NCBI GenBank assembly: GCA_001799975.1
Contig: MGUQ01000127.1
Coordinates: 1,829-15,571, forward strand
Direction: 5' to 3'
Origin: Elusimicrobia bacterium RIFCSPLOWO2_01_FULL_54_10
GTDB lineage: Bacteria > Elusimicrobiota > Elusimicrobia > 2-02-FULL-39-32
DNA: 13,743 nt
The notes below the pieces were generated by a model. The model had not been told where the DNA came from and made no database searches. It saw only the letters and a program-made list of their open reading frames with translations. Every line of letters starts with the position of its first letter. Within the stretch, counting starts at the first letter, position 1. Below are positions 1,193 to 7,777 of the stretch, in pieces. A program made the translations under genes and the position numbers.

Positions 1193-1501
1193 TTACTTTT
1201 TAAGCTTTAACCCCATCTTTTTCTCGAGCGAGGCCACTTTGCTCACCAACTGGTTTTTTGCGCCCCTGCGCGTGTCCACCGCGATCTGTATCATCACCCG
1301 CGGCGCTTCTTTAAGGATTGTGTTGCGGCAGCGGTCAATCAAGCCCATCACATCGTCCCAATCCCCCTCCACCGCGGTTCCCATGGGGCCTGCCTTATAA
1401 GGGAGCCCGCTTTGAGCCACCAGCTTCATAGCCTTCACAAGGCTTTTGGAGAGGGAATCTGTTTTGGTGCCGAGAGGAATTAATGTAAATGATGCAATCA
1501 T
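1193..1501 (-). CDS. Thiamine-binding protein, MTH1187/YqgV family (DUF77)
   Basis: A 102-residue protein starting MIASFTLIPLGTKTDSLSKS. The short ferredoxin-like fold family MTH1187/YqgV typically begins with a strand ending in IPLG, followed by a helix, then the YKAGPMGTAVEGDWDDVM segment (residues about 36-54) and an IAVDTRRG strand; all are present and the length is normal. Members bind thiamine or related pyrimidines, probably as small cytosolic carriers or sensors; that role is family knowledge. The context agrees: thiC lies upstream on the same strand, beyond nadA. The start ATG at 1501-1499 is embedded in the end of structured repeat copy 1: the G-run GGTGGGGGG directly before it is the stem's 3' arm and is the only Shine-Dalgarno-like sequence. 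It converges on ispH with a 5-bp gap and no visible terminator. Confidence 0.85.
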   Translation of the reverse strand: MIASFTLIPLGTKTDSLSKSLVKAMKLVAQSGLPYKAGPMGTAVEGDWDDVMGLIDRCRNTILKEAPRVMIQIAVDTRRGAKNQLVSKVASLEKKMGLKLKK

Positions 1502-1583
1502 CCCCCCACCTGCTTCGCGCGCAAAGCGCGCAGATCGATTGTGGATTTACTTCGTAAATAAGCAGGTGGGGGGATCATGGCTT
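1498..1583 (-). repeat. Structured palindromic repeat, copy 1 (three-way junction), before the thiamine-binding gene
   Basis: The outer stem is 16 bp and perfect: ATCCCCCCACCTGCTT (1500-1515) pairs with AAGCAGGTGGGGGGAT (1560-1575). Inside are hairpin A, GCGCGC-AAA-GCGCGC (1517-1531), a linker AGATCGATTGTGG (1532-1544), and hairpin B, ATTTAC-TTC-GTAAAT (1545-1559), which abuts the right arm. Copy 2 at 6973-7050 has the same plan. Both share flanks outside the stem: TCAT on the left and GATCAYGGCT on the right. The element fills nearly all of the space between nadA (ends 1593) and the thiamine-binding gene (starts 1501). In the minus-strand mRNA the stem takes in the G-run and the first two bases of the downstream ATG. 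It resembles REP/MITE-type non-autonomous elements; I do not recognise a named family. Confidence 0.85.
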
Positions 1584-2498: not shown

Positions 2499-5048
<2,550 letters not shown>

Positions 5049-5052
<4 letters not shown>

Positions 5053-5441
5053 GTTTCCTTGAGCAGCCGCTCCATGTCCAGAATGGCGGAAATCTTGTGC
5101 ATCAGCTTGGGAAAGTTGATGGGTTTGATGATGTAGGACTGGGCCCCGTGCTGAAAGCTCATTTCGATGTCTTCGGGCCCGTCCTTGGCGGTGCACATGA
5201 TGACGGGGACGGTTGCCGTCTTGGGATTGGATTTCAAGCGCAGGAGGACTTCCCAGCCGCTCATGTCGCCCATCATGACGTCCAGAAGGATGAGGTCGGG
5301 CCTATCGGCGTCTGTCTGAGCGAGAGCGTCCTTTCCCGTGAAGCAGGCCGTGGCATCGAATTGGTTTGCAGGAAAATTGATCCGGATCATTTCCGCGAGC
5401 GGCCGTTCATCGTCCACAATGAGGATTTTGTATTTCTTCAT
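5049..5441 (-). CDS. Receiver-only (CheY-like) response regulator
   Basis: A 130-residue single receiver domain: acidic pair D10-D11 (ILIVDDE), phospho-acceptor D54 (LILLDVMMGDMSG), switch threonine T84 (VIMCTAKD) and conserved lysine K106 (YIIKPI). No DNA-binding or enzymatic output domain follows; the chain ends about 20 residues after K106, so it must act by protein-protein contact or as a phosphorelay intermediate. The true start is the ATG at 5441-5439 in an ATGA overlap with the stop of the fadD-like gene; the same frame stays open further upstream, but that stretch is out-of-frame fadD sequence with no protein character. No histidine kinase is nearby. The overlap predicts coupled expression with the acyl-CoA ligase and suggests a functional link, which is inference. 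Confidence 0.93.
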
Positions 5442-6976
5442 TTTGGGGCCATGCTTTCCAGGCGAAGCTGCCGCTTCAACACTTTTTGCAGGGCGTTTTT
5501 GGGCAGCTCCTTGCGAAACTCCAAGTCCCGCGGGCGTTTGTAGGGCGGGAGCTTGTCTTTGCAGAAATTGAGGATATCCTGCTTGTCCGCCGGCGCGCCC
5601 TCTTTCAAAACGATGAACCCTTTCACATATTCGTCGCCGGAGGCGTCCGGAATGCCCACCACGGCCGCTTCCAGCACGGCGGGGTGGGTGATGATGATGG
5701 CCTCCACCTGGGCGGAAAAAACCTTCAAGCCTTTCACGATAATCATATCTTTGATGCGGTCCCGGATATAAAGAAATCCCTCCGCGTCCTGCAAGCCCAC
5801 ATCCCCTGTTTTGAACCATCCGTCCGCGGTGAAAGCGGCTTTAGTGGCTTCCGGCTGGTTGAAATATCCCAGCATCACTCCCGGCCCGGAAATGCAGATT
5901 TCCCCTTCGCTGTTCACAAGCAGTTCCTTTTCATTTTCATCGATGATTTTGATTTTGACTCCGGGAATGGCCGGTCCCACGCTGCCGGGCTTCCATCGGG
6001 ACGCGGTGTTGCAGTTGGTCACGGGCGAGGTTTCGGTCAGGCCATAGCCTTCCTGAATGGGAATGCCGATGTTATTTTTAAAGCGGTCCATGGTGTCTTT
6101 GGTGAGAGGGGCCGAGCCCGAAATGCACATTCTCACGGTGCGGAAAAATCCCCAGCGCAGGACCCATTTTTTAAGCCCCTTGGCCTGCTCCGCCAGCACG
6201 GCATAAATCTGCGGCATGGCCGTAAAGCAGGTGACGCGCTCTTTCATCATCAACTTGAGCCACGGCTTGGGCGGGCGGATGGATTCGGCCATGATCATGG
6301 ACGCTCCTTCGCAGAGGGGCACCAGCACATTGGTGGTCCAGGCGAAAACATGGAACAGGGGCAGGAGGATGAGAAAGCGGTCGCTGATTTTAATTTCCAA
6401 GGCCTGCGCGGAGGCGCGCGCGTTGCTGAGAAGGTTCGAGTGGGAAAGCATGGCGCCTTTGGGCACGCCCGTGGTGCCGGAAGTATAAAGAATGAGCATG
6501 GGATCTTCCGCTTTGCAGGCAGGCGGAGCGCCGTGGGGTATTGTATAGAGATTTGTGAAGGGTTTATGGATTCCATCCGCCGCTTCCAGTCCGATCACCC
6601 ATGCTTCTTTCAAACCCGGATAGATTCTTTCCGTCTCGATGATTGTTTCAAGATGGACGACGTTTGTGATTAAATGCCTGGCCGAAATATCGTTTAAGAT
6701 ATAGCGGACTTCCTCAGGTTTGAGCAAAAAATTTATTGGGACGGCTGTCGCTCCAAGGTGGCTCAAGGCGAAAACGGTGAATATGAATTCGGGGCAGTTC
6801 TTGGAAAAAACCGCCACGCGGTCTCCGGCGTTGACCCCCCATGAGCTCAATCCCGCGGCCACGGACAAGCTTTGCTCTTGCAGCTCCGCATAACTCCATT
6901 CTTTCTCCTGATATTTAAGAGCGGTGCGGGTGGAATTGGCAAGAGCTGCGTTCTGAAGGAACTCAGAGAGGGTCAT
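5438..6976 (-). CDS. Long-chain fatty-acid-CoA ligase (FadD-like, AMP-binding superfamily)
   Basis: Activates a carboxylic acid to an acyl-adenylate and then the CoA thioester. The 512-residue protein has the full set of adenylating-enzyme motifs: YTSGTTGVPKG (164-174, phosphate loop), PLFHVFA (206-212), YGLTETSP (311-318), GWFKTGD (386-392), the hinge region YIRDRIKDMIIVKGLKVF (403-420), and the C-terminal catalytic lysine K498 in LPKNALQK, where the usual glycine before the lysine is glutamine. Length and motifs fit medium/long-chain acyl-CoA synthetases; the exact chain length cannot be read. I place the start at the ATG 6976-6974 (MTLSEFLQ), because the further upstream open frame to 7024 is inside structured repeat copy 2 and would begin with TTG. 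The ATG sits at the very end of that repeat, whose G-run is its only Shine-Dalgarno. ATGA overlap with the receiver gene. Confidence 0.93.
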   Translation of the reverse strand: MTLSEFLQNAALANSTRTALKYQEKEWSYAELQEQSLSVAAGLSSWGVNAGDRVAVFSKNCPEFIFTVFALSHLGATAVPINFLLKPEEVRYILNDISARHLITNVVHLETIIETERIYPGLKEAWVIGLEAADGIHKPFTNLYTIPHGAPPACKAEDPMLILYTSGTTGVPKGAMLSHSNLLSNARASAQALEIKISDRFLILLPLFHVFAWTTNVLVPLCEGASMIMAESIRPPKPWLKLMMKERVTCFTAMPQIYAVLAEQAKGLKKWVLRWGFFRTVRMCISGSAPLTKDTMDRFKNNIGIPIQEGYGLTETSPVTNCNTASRWKPGSVGPAIPGVKIKIIDENEKELLVNSEGEICISGPGVMLGYFNQPEATKAAFTADGWFKTGDVGLQDAEGFLYIRDRIKDMIIVKGLKVFSAQVEAIIITHPAVLEAAVVGIPDASGDEYVKGFIVLKEGAPADKQDILNFCKDKLPPYKRPRDLEFRKELPKNALQKVLKRQLRLESMAPK

Positions 6977-7050
6977 CCCCCTACCTGCCTTTGCCCGATA
7001 AGGCAATGCAATTTTGCTTCGCAAAATAGGCAGGTAGGGGGATCACGGCT
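6973..7050 (-). repeat. Structured palindromic repeat, copy 2 (three-way junction), before the fadD-like gene
   Basis: Perfect 16-bp outer stem: ATCCCCCTACCTGCCT (6975-6990) with AGGCAGGTAGGGGGAT (7028-7043). Inside are hairpin A, TTGCC-CGATAA-GGCAA (6991-7006), a TGCA linker (7007-7010), and hairpin B, ATTTTGC-TTC-GCAAAAT (7011-7027). Relative to copy 1 the outer stem differs at two positions, and both changes are matched on the other arm (C-G to T-A, T-A to C-G); hairpin B is one pair longer but keeps the TTC loop; hairpin A has an unrelated sequence yet still pairs. The element occupies the whole gap between dppF (stop 7051-7049, within the shared GGCT flank) and the fadD-like gene (start 6976). 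Orientation and placement relative to the downstream ATG are the same as in copy 1. Confidence 0.87.
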
Positions 7051-7777
7051 ATATTGTAACCCTCAATGTTGCCGCAAGCAAGGTTTTTGTGTAAGCGTTT
7101 TGCGGCCGCTCAAAAATTTCCCGCACAGCGCCCTGCTCAACAATCTCGCCCTCTTTCATCACCAGAACTTTGCCGGCCAGCTCTTCCACCACGGACAAGT
7201 CGTGCGTGATGAAAAGATACGAGATTTTGCGTTCGTTCTTGAGAGACAAAAGAAGTTTCAATATCTGCGCCTGGATGGTGACGTCCAGAGCGGACACGGG
7301 CTCGTCCGCAATGATGAGTTTCGGGTTGGCGGCCAGGGCGCGGGCGATGCCCAATCTCTGTCTTTGCCCTCCGGAAAACTGGTGCGGGTAATCGTGTAAA
7401 ATGTCGGCAGGCAAGCCCACGGATTTGAGCAAGTCCGCCGGTGTTTGAGAACTTTTGGAAAGCGCCAGGGCTTCTTTGAGCATCGTGCCCACTGAAAGTT
7501 TGGGATTCAACGACGCGTAGGGATCCTGAAAAATCATTTGCACTTCCCGGGCCCGCACTTTCCCGTCCAAAAGAATTTCTCCCGCATCGGGCTGGATCAA
7601 CCCCTGAATCAACTTGCCCACGGTGGATTTCCCGCTGCCGGATTCCCCCACCAGGGCCACAATTTCATTTTCCGCGATGGAAAACGAAACATTTTTAACG
7701 GCTTGAACATACCCCTTGACCTTGAACAGGCCGCTCTCAATCGGGAATTTCTTTGAGAGGTTTTTTACATCAAGCAC
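7049..7777 (-). CDS. dppF: Peptide ABC transporter ATPase, second subunit (DppF/OppF-like)
   Basis: One of the two cytoplasmic ATPases that power the peptide importer. The 242-residue protein has Walker [10 protein letters not shown] (44-52), Q-loop and the subfamily hallmark FQDPYASLNP (83-92), signature FSGGQRQR (134-141), Walker B LIIADEP (154-160) and switch H192 (FITHDLS). It is short: the usual OppF/DppF subunit is about 310-330 residues with a C-terminal oligopeptide-transporter tail, which is absent here, and the segment between Walker A and the Q-loop is also trimmed. The start is GTG (7777-7775); residue 2 onward matches the family's first strand, and it overlaps the end of dppD by 8 nt. 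A weak AAGG lies 6 nt upstream. Downstream is repeat copy 2. Dpp versus Opp cannot be decided from sequence alone. Confidence 0.93.
   Translation of the reverse strand: MLDVKNLSKKFPIESGLFKVKGYVQAVKNVSFSIAENEIVALVGESGSGKSTVGKLIQGLIQPDAGEILLDGKVRAREVQMIFQDPYASLNPKLSVGTMLKEALALSKSSQTPADLLKSVGLPADILHDYPHQFSGGQRQRLGIARALAANPKLIIADEPVSALDVTIQAQILKLLLSLKNERKISYLFITHDLSVVEELAGKVLVMKEGEIVEQGAVREIFERPQNAYTKTLLAATLRVTI

Follow-up and report, generated by a model that had tools for sequence, protein, structure and literature searches.

Mycobacterial interspersed repetitive units (MIRUs), reportedly described by Supply et al. in 1997, offer the closest precedent for the repeats analyzed here. According to the passage of PMC12548453 on which we draw, MIRUs are short, apparently mobile repeats inserted at start codons, with an internal ORF that is coupled to the host gene at a spacing of -4 nt, with little effect on expression; that passage makes no mention of a nuclease-bearing MIRU. 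Another relevant case is that of the Rickettsia palindromic elements (RPEs), palindromes that are tolerated in genes through open frames, as described in a 2024 review of prokaryotic MITEs, in the text of which the terms 'GIY-YIG', 'start codon' and 'MIRU' do not occur (PMC10969869). Within the literature covered, a scope that leaves bioRxiv and most subscription journals outside, we found no start-codon element that combines inverted repeats with a GIY-YIG gene, and likewise no report of a form with a nuclease, of covariation between the inverted repeats of such elements, or of their occurrence in the phyla considered here.

The window, that is, the whole stretch of 13,743 nucleotides that was analyzed (C127:1829-15571), comes from a 1.89-Mb, 129-contig, 79%-complete Elusimicrobiota MAG (hereinafter own genome, G000) and contains two hairpins which we assign to a MIRU-like mobile element that inserts at start codons and has structured inverted repeats and a likely parent with a GIY-YIG gene. 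Insertion of this kind is already known from MIRUs, and therefore we do not call the find categorically new; what is new here is the nuclease-bearing form, the covarying inverted repeats and the presence in these phyla. Compared by description only, the element differs from MIRUs in its Elusimicrobiota host, its covarying inverted repeats, its insertion in both orientations and the existence of a GIY-YIG parent copy.

Two hairpin copies in the window

The features on which the analysis builds, all on the minus strand, are the following.

1193..1501, minus strand: host gene downstream of copy 1, Thiamine_BP (PF01910), starting on the rebuilt ATG
1498..1500, minus strand: 3' TGA duplicate of copy 1 (TCA on the plus strand), the TG of which completes the rebuilt ATG (1501-1499); stop of the mini-ORF
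1498..1578, minus strand: mini-ORF of copy 1, 26 codons, MIPPPAYLRSKSTIDLRALRAKQVGG, the stop TGA of which overlaps the rebuilt ATG
1501..1574, minus strand: core of copy 1, 74 bp, with outer inverted repeat TCCCCCCACCTGCTT / AAGCAGGTGGGGGGA
Within the copy 1 core, minus strand: inner hairpins ATTTAC-GAA-GTAAAT and GCGCGC-TTT-GCGCGC
1575..1577, minus strand: 5' TGA duplicate of copy 1, which with 1578 forms the old start codon ATG, then A
3313..3316, minus strand: empty target TTGA, overlap of a thiC-like stop with the TTG at which a PHP-like gene starts; occupied in a congener (G001)
5438..6976, minus strand: host gene downstream of copy 2, AMP-binding (PF00501), starting on the rebuilt ATG
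6973..6975, minus strand: 3' TGA duplicate of copy 2, which completes the rebuilt ATG (6976-6974)
6976..7042, minus strand: core of copy 2, 67 bp, with outer inverted repeat TCCCCCTACCTGCCT / AGGCAGGTAGGGGGA
Within the copy 2 core: inner hairpins ATTTTGC-GAA-GCAAAAT and TTGCC...GGCAA
6981..7046, minus strand: mini-ORF of copy 2, VIPLPAYFAKQNCIALSGKGR, ending on a TAG 8 bases before the duplicated TGA and thus outside the common register
7043..7045, minus strand: 5' TGA duplicate of copy 2; old start codon GTG (7046-7044)

The labels nadA, thiC, PHP and glyQ, here and below, are our own putative assignments from the sequence.

A previous, sequence-only reading of this stretch had described two structured copies that share an outer stem and two inner hairpins, and this description holds: folded as single-stranded DNA, copies 1 and 2 give z values of -6.75 and -6.42, far better than shuffles (0 of 200 in each case), and as RNA of the minus strand, which is the strand of the neighboring genes, they give -7.27 and -5.92. 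The compensated differences are likewise as described, with two double changes in the outer stem, the replacement of ATTTAC/GTAAAT by ATTTTGC/GCAAAAT around a constant TTC loop, and another hairpin that is unrelated in sequence between the copies yet paired in both. The right-hand limits given there, 1583 and 7050, were 5 to 6 bases too wide, and it went unnoticed that each copy sits exactly within the start codon of a gene on the minus strand. Both cores are bordered on each side by TCA on the plus strand, that is, TGA on the minus strand, and the TTG at 7024 in the ORF list is not the start of the AMP-binding host gene. An Rfam scan of the window assigned no family to the hairpins; its sole match, to mir-214 over copy 2 (6963-7057, minus strand), scores 29.9 bits, far below the gathering score of 66.7 bits, and is best read as a chance match to a long hairpin.

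Spread, covariation and target sites of the family

A covariance model (R1) was built from 14 copies, which had been selected by a pattern with ACCTG/CAGGT and some portions of the ends held constant. It matched 26 places in the own genome and 13 in G001, 39 altogether, with no copies in another congener (G002) and one weak, different match in another genus within the family; among the Elusimicrobiota, there are matches in 19 of 340 genomes and 12 of 100 genera. A core-only model without the TGA (R2) returned, among the matches listed for the own genome and G001, only places that were already known. Stretches of N occur inside or beside the copies L120 (G000:C113:4117), L126 (G001:C49:11487), L127 (G001:C6:2428), L043 (G000:C108) and L119 (G000:C3:9761). 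The hairpins seem to break short-read assemblies, and the copy numbers are therefore lower bounds.

The 14 model copies contain 20 double-change stem cells, compared with 5.0 in shuffles. In a larger set of 57 copies, which joins 34 of the 39 copies from the own genome and the congener (left out were one copy with Ns, three short copies and one further copy) with 23 of 26 new Elusimicrobiota loci, 98.4% of the outer stem cells are paired and double changes occur in 12 of the 15 pairs; the 87 double-change cells compare with a shuffled mean of 18.6 (0 of 500 shuffles) and at most 12 in slid versions, controls that leave some relatedness in but from which the observed value is still far removed. 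The search of the genome and its relatives that the sequence-only reading had proposed thus expands its two copies to 39 in two genomes, with pairing kept, which removes chance as an explanation, and bears out its suggestions of a constraint on structure and of a dispersed, MITE-like element with compensated stems, to which the 3-bp target duplications and empty sites described below can be added.

In all 39 copies, the core is flanked by TGA on both sides, in the arrangement NTGA-core-TGA, a start codon followed by A, so that, as with MIRUs, every insertion lies at a start codon. The old start codons, read with the base before the first TGA, are ATG in 30 copies, GTG in 7 and TTG in 2, and the new ones, formed by the last base of the core and TG, are ATG in 33 and GTG in 6. 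From the new start, an ORF of at least 100 aa extends in 35 of the 39; among the other four, one is broken by an assembly gap and the rest measure 58, 59 and 82 aa. At 25 of the 39 sites, the first TGA is also the stop codon of an upstream ORF of 100 aa or more, and these sites accordingly were stop/start overlaps, as in MIRUs; both window copies fail this test. The copies thus lie not in plain intergenic gaps, as had been thought, but in start codons, often at such overlaps within operons. With the copy C45b as reference, four others among 17 copies of equal length have the same sense and eight are reverse complements, all of them clear, the remaining four being members of another sub-family with weak scores in either orientation. 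The core is found in both orientations, and the TGA therefore belongs to the target rather than to the element.

Empty sites are available in both directions. The site of copy 2 is empty in G001, AATATAGCCGTGACCCT (L269), as against AATATAGCCGTGA-core-TGACCCT in the window; reciprocally, the thiC/PHP site is empty in the window, CCGTTGAGAG, as against CCGTTGA-core-TGAAAG in G001. The site of copy 1 is found without the element in L060 (AAAAAGCATGATCG), L061 (CCTAATGATCG) and L062 (CCGCCATGATCG); the nadA-like protein from the window is 87% and 84% identical to its counterparts in two Elusimicrobia MAGs (L060 and L061). At the thiC/PHP site of L060 and L062, the element is also absent, but the spacers differ. 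The sites compared with G001 show precise insertion with exact duplication of the TGA. In 88 kb of own-genome stretches, which were chosen around copies and hence are biased, a simple ORF caller gave 50 starts followed by A versus 202 intergenic TGA/TCA sites, so that, if copies landed at random among tolerated sites, about one in five would be expected at a start. Tandem stacks of two cores with only TGA between them were observed at L187 (G113:C5:4977-5123) and L240 (G115:C85): NTGA is rebuilt at each insertion, and so the site can be used again.

How general is this mode of insertion? In eight other Elusimicrobiota genomes, where 62 of the 65 noted places were examined, the 3-bp flanks are identical in 48 copies and differ in 14. 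The identical flanks are TGA/TCA in 26 copies, TAA/TTA in 13, TGG/CCA in 5 (one genome), CAA/TTG in 3 (one genome) and ACA/TGT in 1, so that 39 of the 48 are of the TNA type, compared with TGA in the own lineage. By the criteria used, 17 of the 62 copies are placed at start codons and 45 elsewhere. The frame stays open as far as the new start in each of the 17 (7 have the overlap register, 9 read in frame into the host ORF and 1 does neither), and so it does in 31 of the 45 away from start codons. Judged from these flanks, the 3-bp duplication is general, and strict use of start codons is a mark of the own lineage and the nuclease family. By genome, the target triplet is TGG/CCA in 5 of the 9 copies of G170 (L229-L237) and CAA/TTG in 3 of the 9 copies of G332 (L220-L228), as if target choice changed with the lineage.

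Reading frame and the nuclease-bearing form

In 34 of the 39 copies, a mini-ORF that opens at the old start reads across the core and has the second TGA as its stop, overlapping the host start by 4 nt as the internal ORF of MIRUs does; the exceptions are three that stop 8 bases early (copy 2 of the window departs from the overlap in this way), one that stops 3 bases early and one that enters the host ORF. Among the 38 N-free copies, frame 0 is open in 34 and the other two sense frames in 16 each, and the antisense frames are open in 26 (frame 0), 13 and 19. The core length is 2 modulo 3 in 35 of the 39; many copies have the same length, but the rule also holds for 10 of the 14 distinct lengths. 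A Shine-Dalgarno (SD) match of 5 nt or longer lies before the new start in 29 of the 39 copies and before the old start in 9, and the SD-like AGGTG is located in the 3' arm. In the five copies folded as RNA, the SD of the new start falls within the predicted outer stem, so that a ribosome translating the mini-ORF should in principle uncover it.

We infer coupled translation from this anatomy. Ribosomes would start at the start codon of the host and translate either the nuclease or its mini-ORF remnant, thereby opening the hairpin that hides the new start site; they would then terminate on the duplicated TGA and re-initiate on the host gene. The element would thus be expressed from the initiation signal of the host, and the host gene would stay on. 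Because the start codon is rebuilt, most copies leave the host protein as it was, a difference from RPEs, which are in-frame insertions inside coding regions, whereas the copies here sit in start codons. Nearest to an RPE is a single copy of the 39, L114 (G000:C77:230-295), the length of which lets the mini-ORF continue in frame into the host ORF as an N-terminal extension; this host ORF has only 58 aa.

A search with single arms, allowing one mismatch, found one pair 317 nt apart, G000:C55:11058-11374. The ORF between these arms runs from the old ATG to a TGA that overlaps the new ATG, and it holds a GIY-YIG domain (PF01541, 44.8 bits versus a curated cut-off of 22.6), with the first and last residues encoded by the repeats in the same frame as the mini-ORFs. 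Where the sequence-only reading had suggested a search for a transposase with matching ends, the gene found between such ends is that of a GIY-YIG nuclease and not of a known transposase. This copy has one subterminal hairpin at each end, ATTCACC-GAA-GGTGAAT and GCCAGC...GCTGGC, an architecture shared with the window copies, which consequently look like the same element without the gene; more generally, the hairpin copies look like deletion derivatives of the nuclease-bearing element. In this they resemble MITEs of known insertion sequences, being short, bounded by inverted repeats and a target duplication, devoid of an enzyme of their own and apparently derived from a longer element by deletion, but they differ from them in that the longer form encodes a GIY-YIG nuclease, in their placement at start codons in the own lineage and in the compensated stem changes.

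The own genome has three GIY-YIG ORFs, on C55, C52 and C29. The one on C52 is enclosed by other inverted repeats, ATCCCCCACCAACC; its end overlaps the start of a glyQ-like gene, and its 5' border is TAA rather than TGA; around the one on C29, no such repeats were found. Out of 28 GIY-YIG loci besides C55, 23 were examined, and repeats of this kind surround five: G000:C52, G115:C85, G170:C71, G170:C122 and G330:C13. At G330:C19 there is a 17-bp inverted repeat beside a tRNA-like sequence, and the remaining examined loci have no repeats, short ones or another kind.

The link between the nuclease and the repeats extends to database sequences. At E <= 1e-15, the nuclease has 466 relatives, in the best 120 of which the ends were scored: 85 start with [MVL][ITV]PxP, 104 end with [QE]V[VMI]G and 74 do both. 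A tRNA-adjacent GIY-YIG protein served as the control, and neither motif occurs in any of its 120 listed relatives. Both motifs correspond to the peptides encoded by the repeats (ATGATCCCACCACCT and CAGGTGGTGGGATGA). Residue 2 is I or T in 83 of the 85 relatives with the N-terminal motif, which implies A after ATG and hence a TGA target in those metagenomes too; an organism name is given for seven of the best 120, all of them Omnitrophica MAGs. Tyr19, Tyr30, Arg40, His44, Glu64 and Glu76 are invariant in 52 aligned sequences, and we take these residues to have a catalytic-type role, as in the GIY-YIG family. NCBIfam has no family for three of the nucleases, and a scan of viral contigs with sequence A5, made with a viral source in mind, gave a single relative, at 33%.

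An AlphaFold2 model of the C55 nuclease (mean pLDDT 80, pTM 0.64) has low confidence at both repeat-encoded ends. The nearest solved protein is UPF0213 BH0048 (1zg2; sequence E 1.4e-13, fold E 5.4e-5, TM 0.42), followed by fold by the branched-DNA nuclease Slx1 (E 2.8e-3 and weaker, TM 0.53-0.58). The protein thus shares its domain with free-standing GIY-YIG proteins but differs from them in that its N- and C-terminal residues come from inverted repeats and its gene uses the start codon of the host. If the modeled fold is a guide, an enzyme acting on folded, branched DNA would be well matched to the covarying ends of this element.

Other GIY-YIG ORFs were found in different surroundings. L139 (G001:C23:9374-9595 and flanks) lies between copies of another hairpin, ATGCCCGCTTTCGCGGGCATGAC, perhaps a second pairing of a palindrome with a GIY-YIG gene. 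Still others are adjacent to tRNA-like sequence, namely L129 (G001:C47), L137 and L146 (G002:C18), L247 (G332:C62) and L256 (G160:C33), and several of these have repeated tRNA-like stretches on both sides, as if tRNA genes were the targets of related elements.

What moves the element

So what is the enzyme behind these insertions? The explanation that we consider probable holds that the hairpins are non-autonomous copies of a tiny start-codon-inserting mobile element with coupled translation, moved by the GIY-YIG nuclease. The anatomy and mobility of the element are well supported by the compared copies and empty sites, and a GIY-YIG mobility enzyme is the most likely reading of what lies between the arms. 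The least certain step is the action of the nuclease itself, which would cut the folded ends and/or the target and so mobilize both full-length and hairpin copies. A search with the nuclease profile (E <= 1e-15) found no match in several copy-rich genomes, among them G121, G112, G009 and G110; the loci matched in G113 and G332 are not flanked by repeats of this kind, and in G001, with 13 copies, GIY-YIG ORFs are present but outside such elements. In copy-rich genomes with no matching nuclease, the nuclease-bearing form could be absent, missed, more distant or unassembled, given incomplete assemblies and gaps at hairpins, or another enzyme could move the hairpins. Also against the explanation as a whole count the 45 of 62 copies of other lineages away from start codons, the five of 39 mini-ORFs that depart from the common stop and the antisense frame 0, which is open in 26 of 38 copies.

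The principal rival scenario retains the same anatomy, but mobility would be supplied in trans by a conventional transposase with 3-bp duplications as its product. The GIY-YIG gene would then be a mere passenger, or would encode a homing endonuclease able to spread the element to allelic sites only. The 3-bp duplications in the 48 copies of other genomes, mostly TNA, are compatible with such a scenario, this duplication type being known from some DDE elements, e.g. IS5/IS1031 and PIF/Harbinger, and so are the copy-rich genomes without a matching nuclease and the fact that the own genome is only 79% complete. Nevertheless, the arm search of the own genome and G001 detected no arm pair enclosing a gene except the GIY-YIG pair, and the repeat-encoded ends in 74 of the 120 best relatives tie the nuclease family to the repeats, so that we regard a conventional transposase as unlikely, albeit the most serious competitor. 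It is far harder to accept that the hairpins are cis-acting RNA regulators (an SD-sequestering hairpin, a leader-peptide attenuator or a riboswitch) kept by descent and not mobile. The SD and start codon in the outer stem, the covarying stems and the leader ORF that overlaps the start all conform to this view, but the empty sites with exact TGA duplication contradict descent, and the insertion in both orientations, the unrelated downstream genes, the nuclease-bearing copies and the lack of an Rfam family are at odds with it; a regulatory effect after insertion may exist all the same.

Least credible of all is the relation to REP/RAYT palindromes moved by a Y1 transposase, which the sequence-only reading had raised and which many small structured palindromes with compensated stems would bring to mind. 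The copies share with REP/REPIN-RAYT systems their dispersal as palindromes with conserved pairing, but they target start codons and carry a target duplication, which Y1 elements are not known to make, and the Y1 transposase profile (PF01797) had no match in the own, 79%-complete genome, although the same search was positive in 5 of 14 control genomes. Integron attC sites were set aside as well, the conserved ends appearing unlike the GTTRRRY type.

Returning to the GIY-YIG nuclease as the mover, one might go further and propose a new class of minimal transposon, the sole gene of which would be a GIY-YIG mobility enzyme acting on folded, covarying ends, and which would take the start codon of the host and return a rebuilt start and ribosome site; MIRU-like repeats elsewhere may be relics of the same strategy. 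We put this forward tentatively, as a possibility that we would not quite wager on.

The start-codon-inserting, MIRU-like repeats, which we otherwise found described only as short repeats, gain a likely nuclease-bearing parent, and the rebuilt starts explain how such repeats can sit at operon junctions and leave the genes there unsilenced. Among the entries from Omnitrophota and related MAGs that are annotated as 'GIY-YIG nuclease family protein', many appear to be genes of mobile elements with inverted-repeat ends, and annotation calls for caution in that ORFs of 13-28 codons and hairpins at such junctions are probably neither host genes nor riboswitches. Transposition by a GIY-YIG enzyme alone now becomes a directly testable question.
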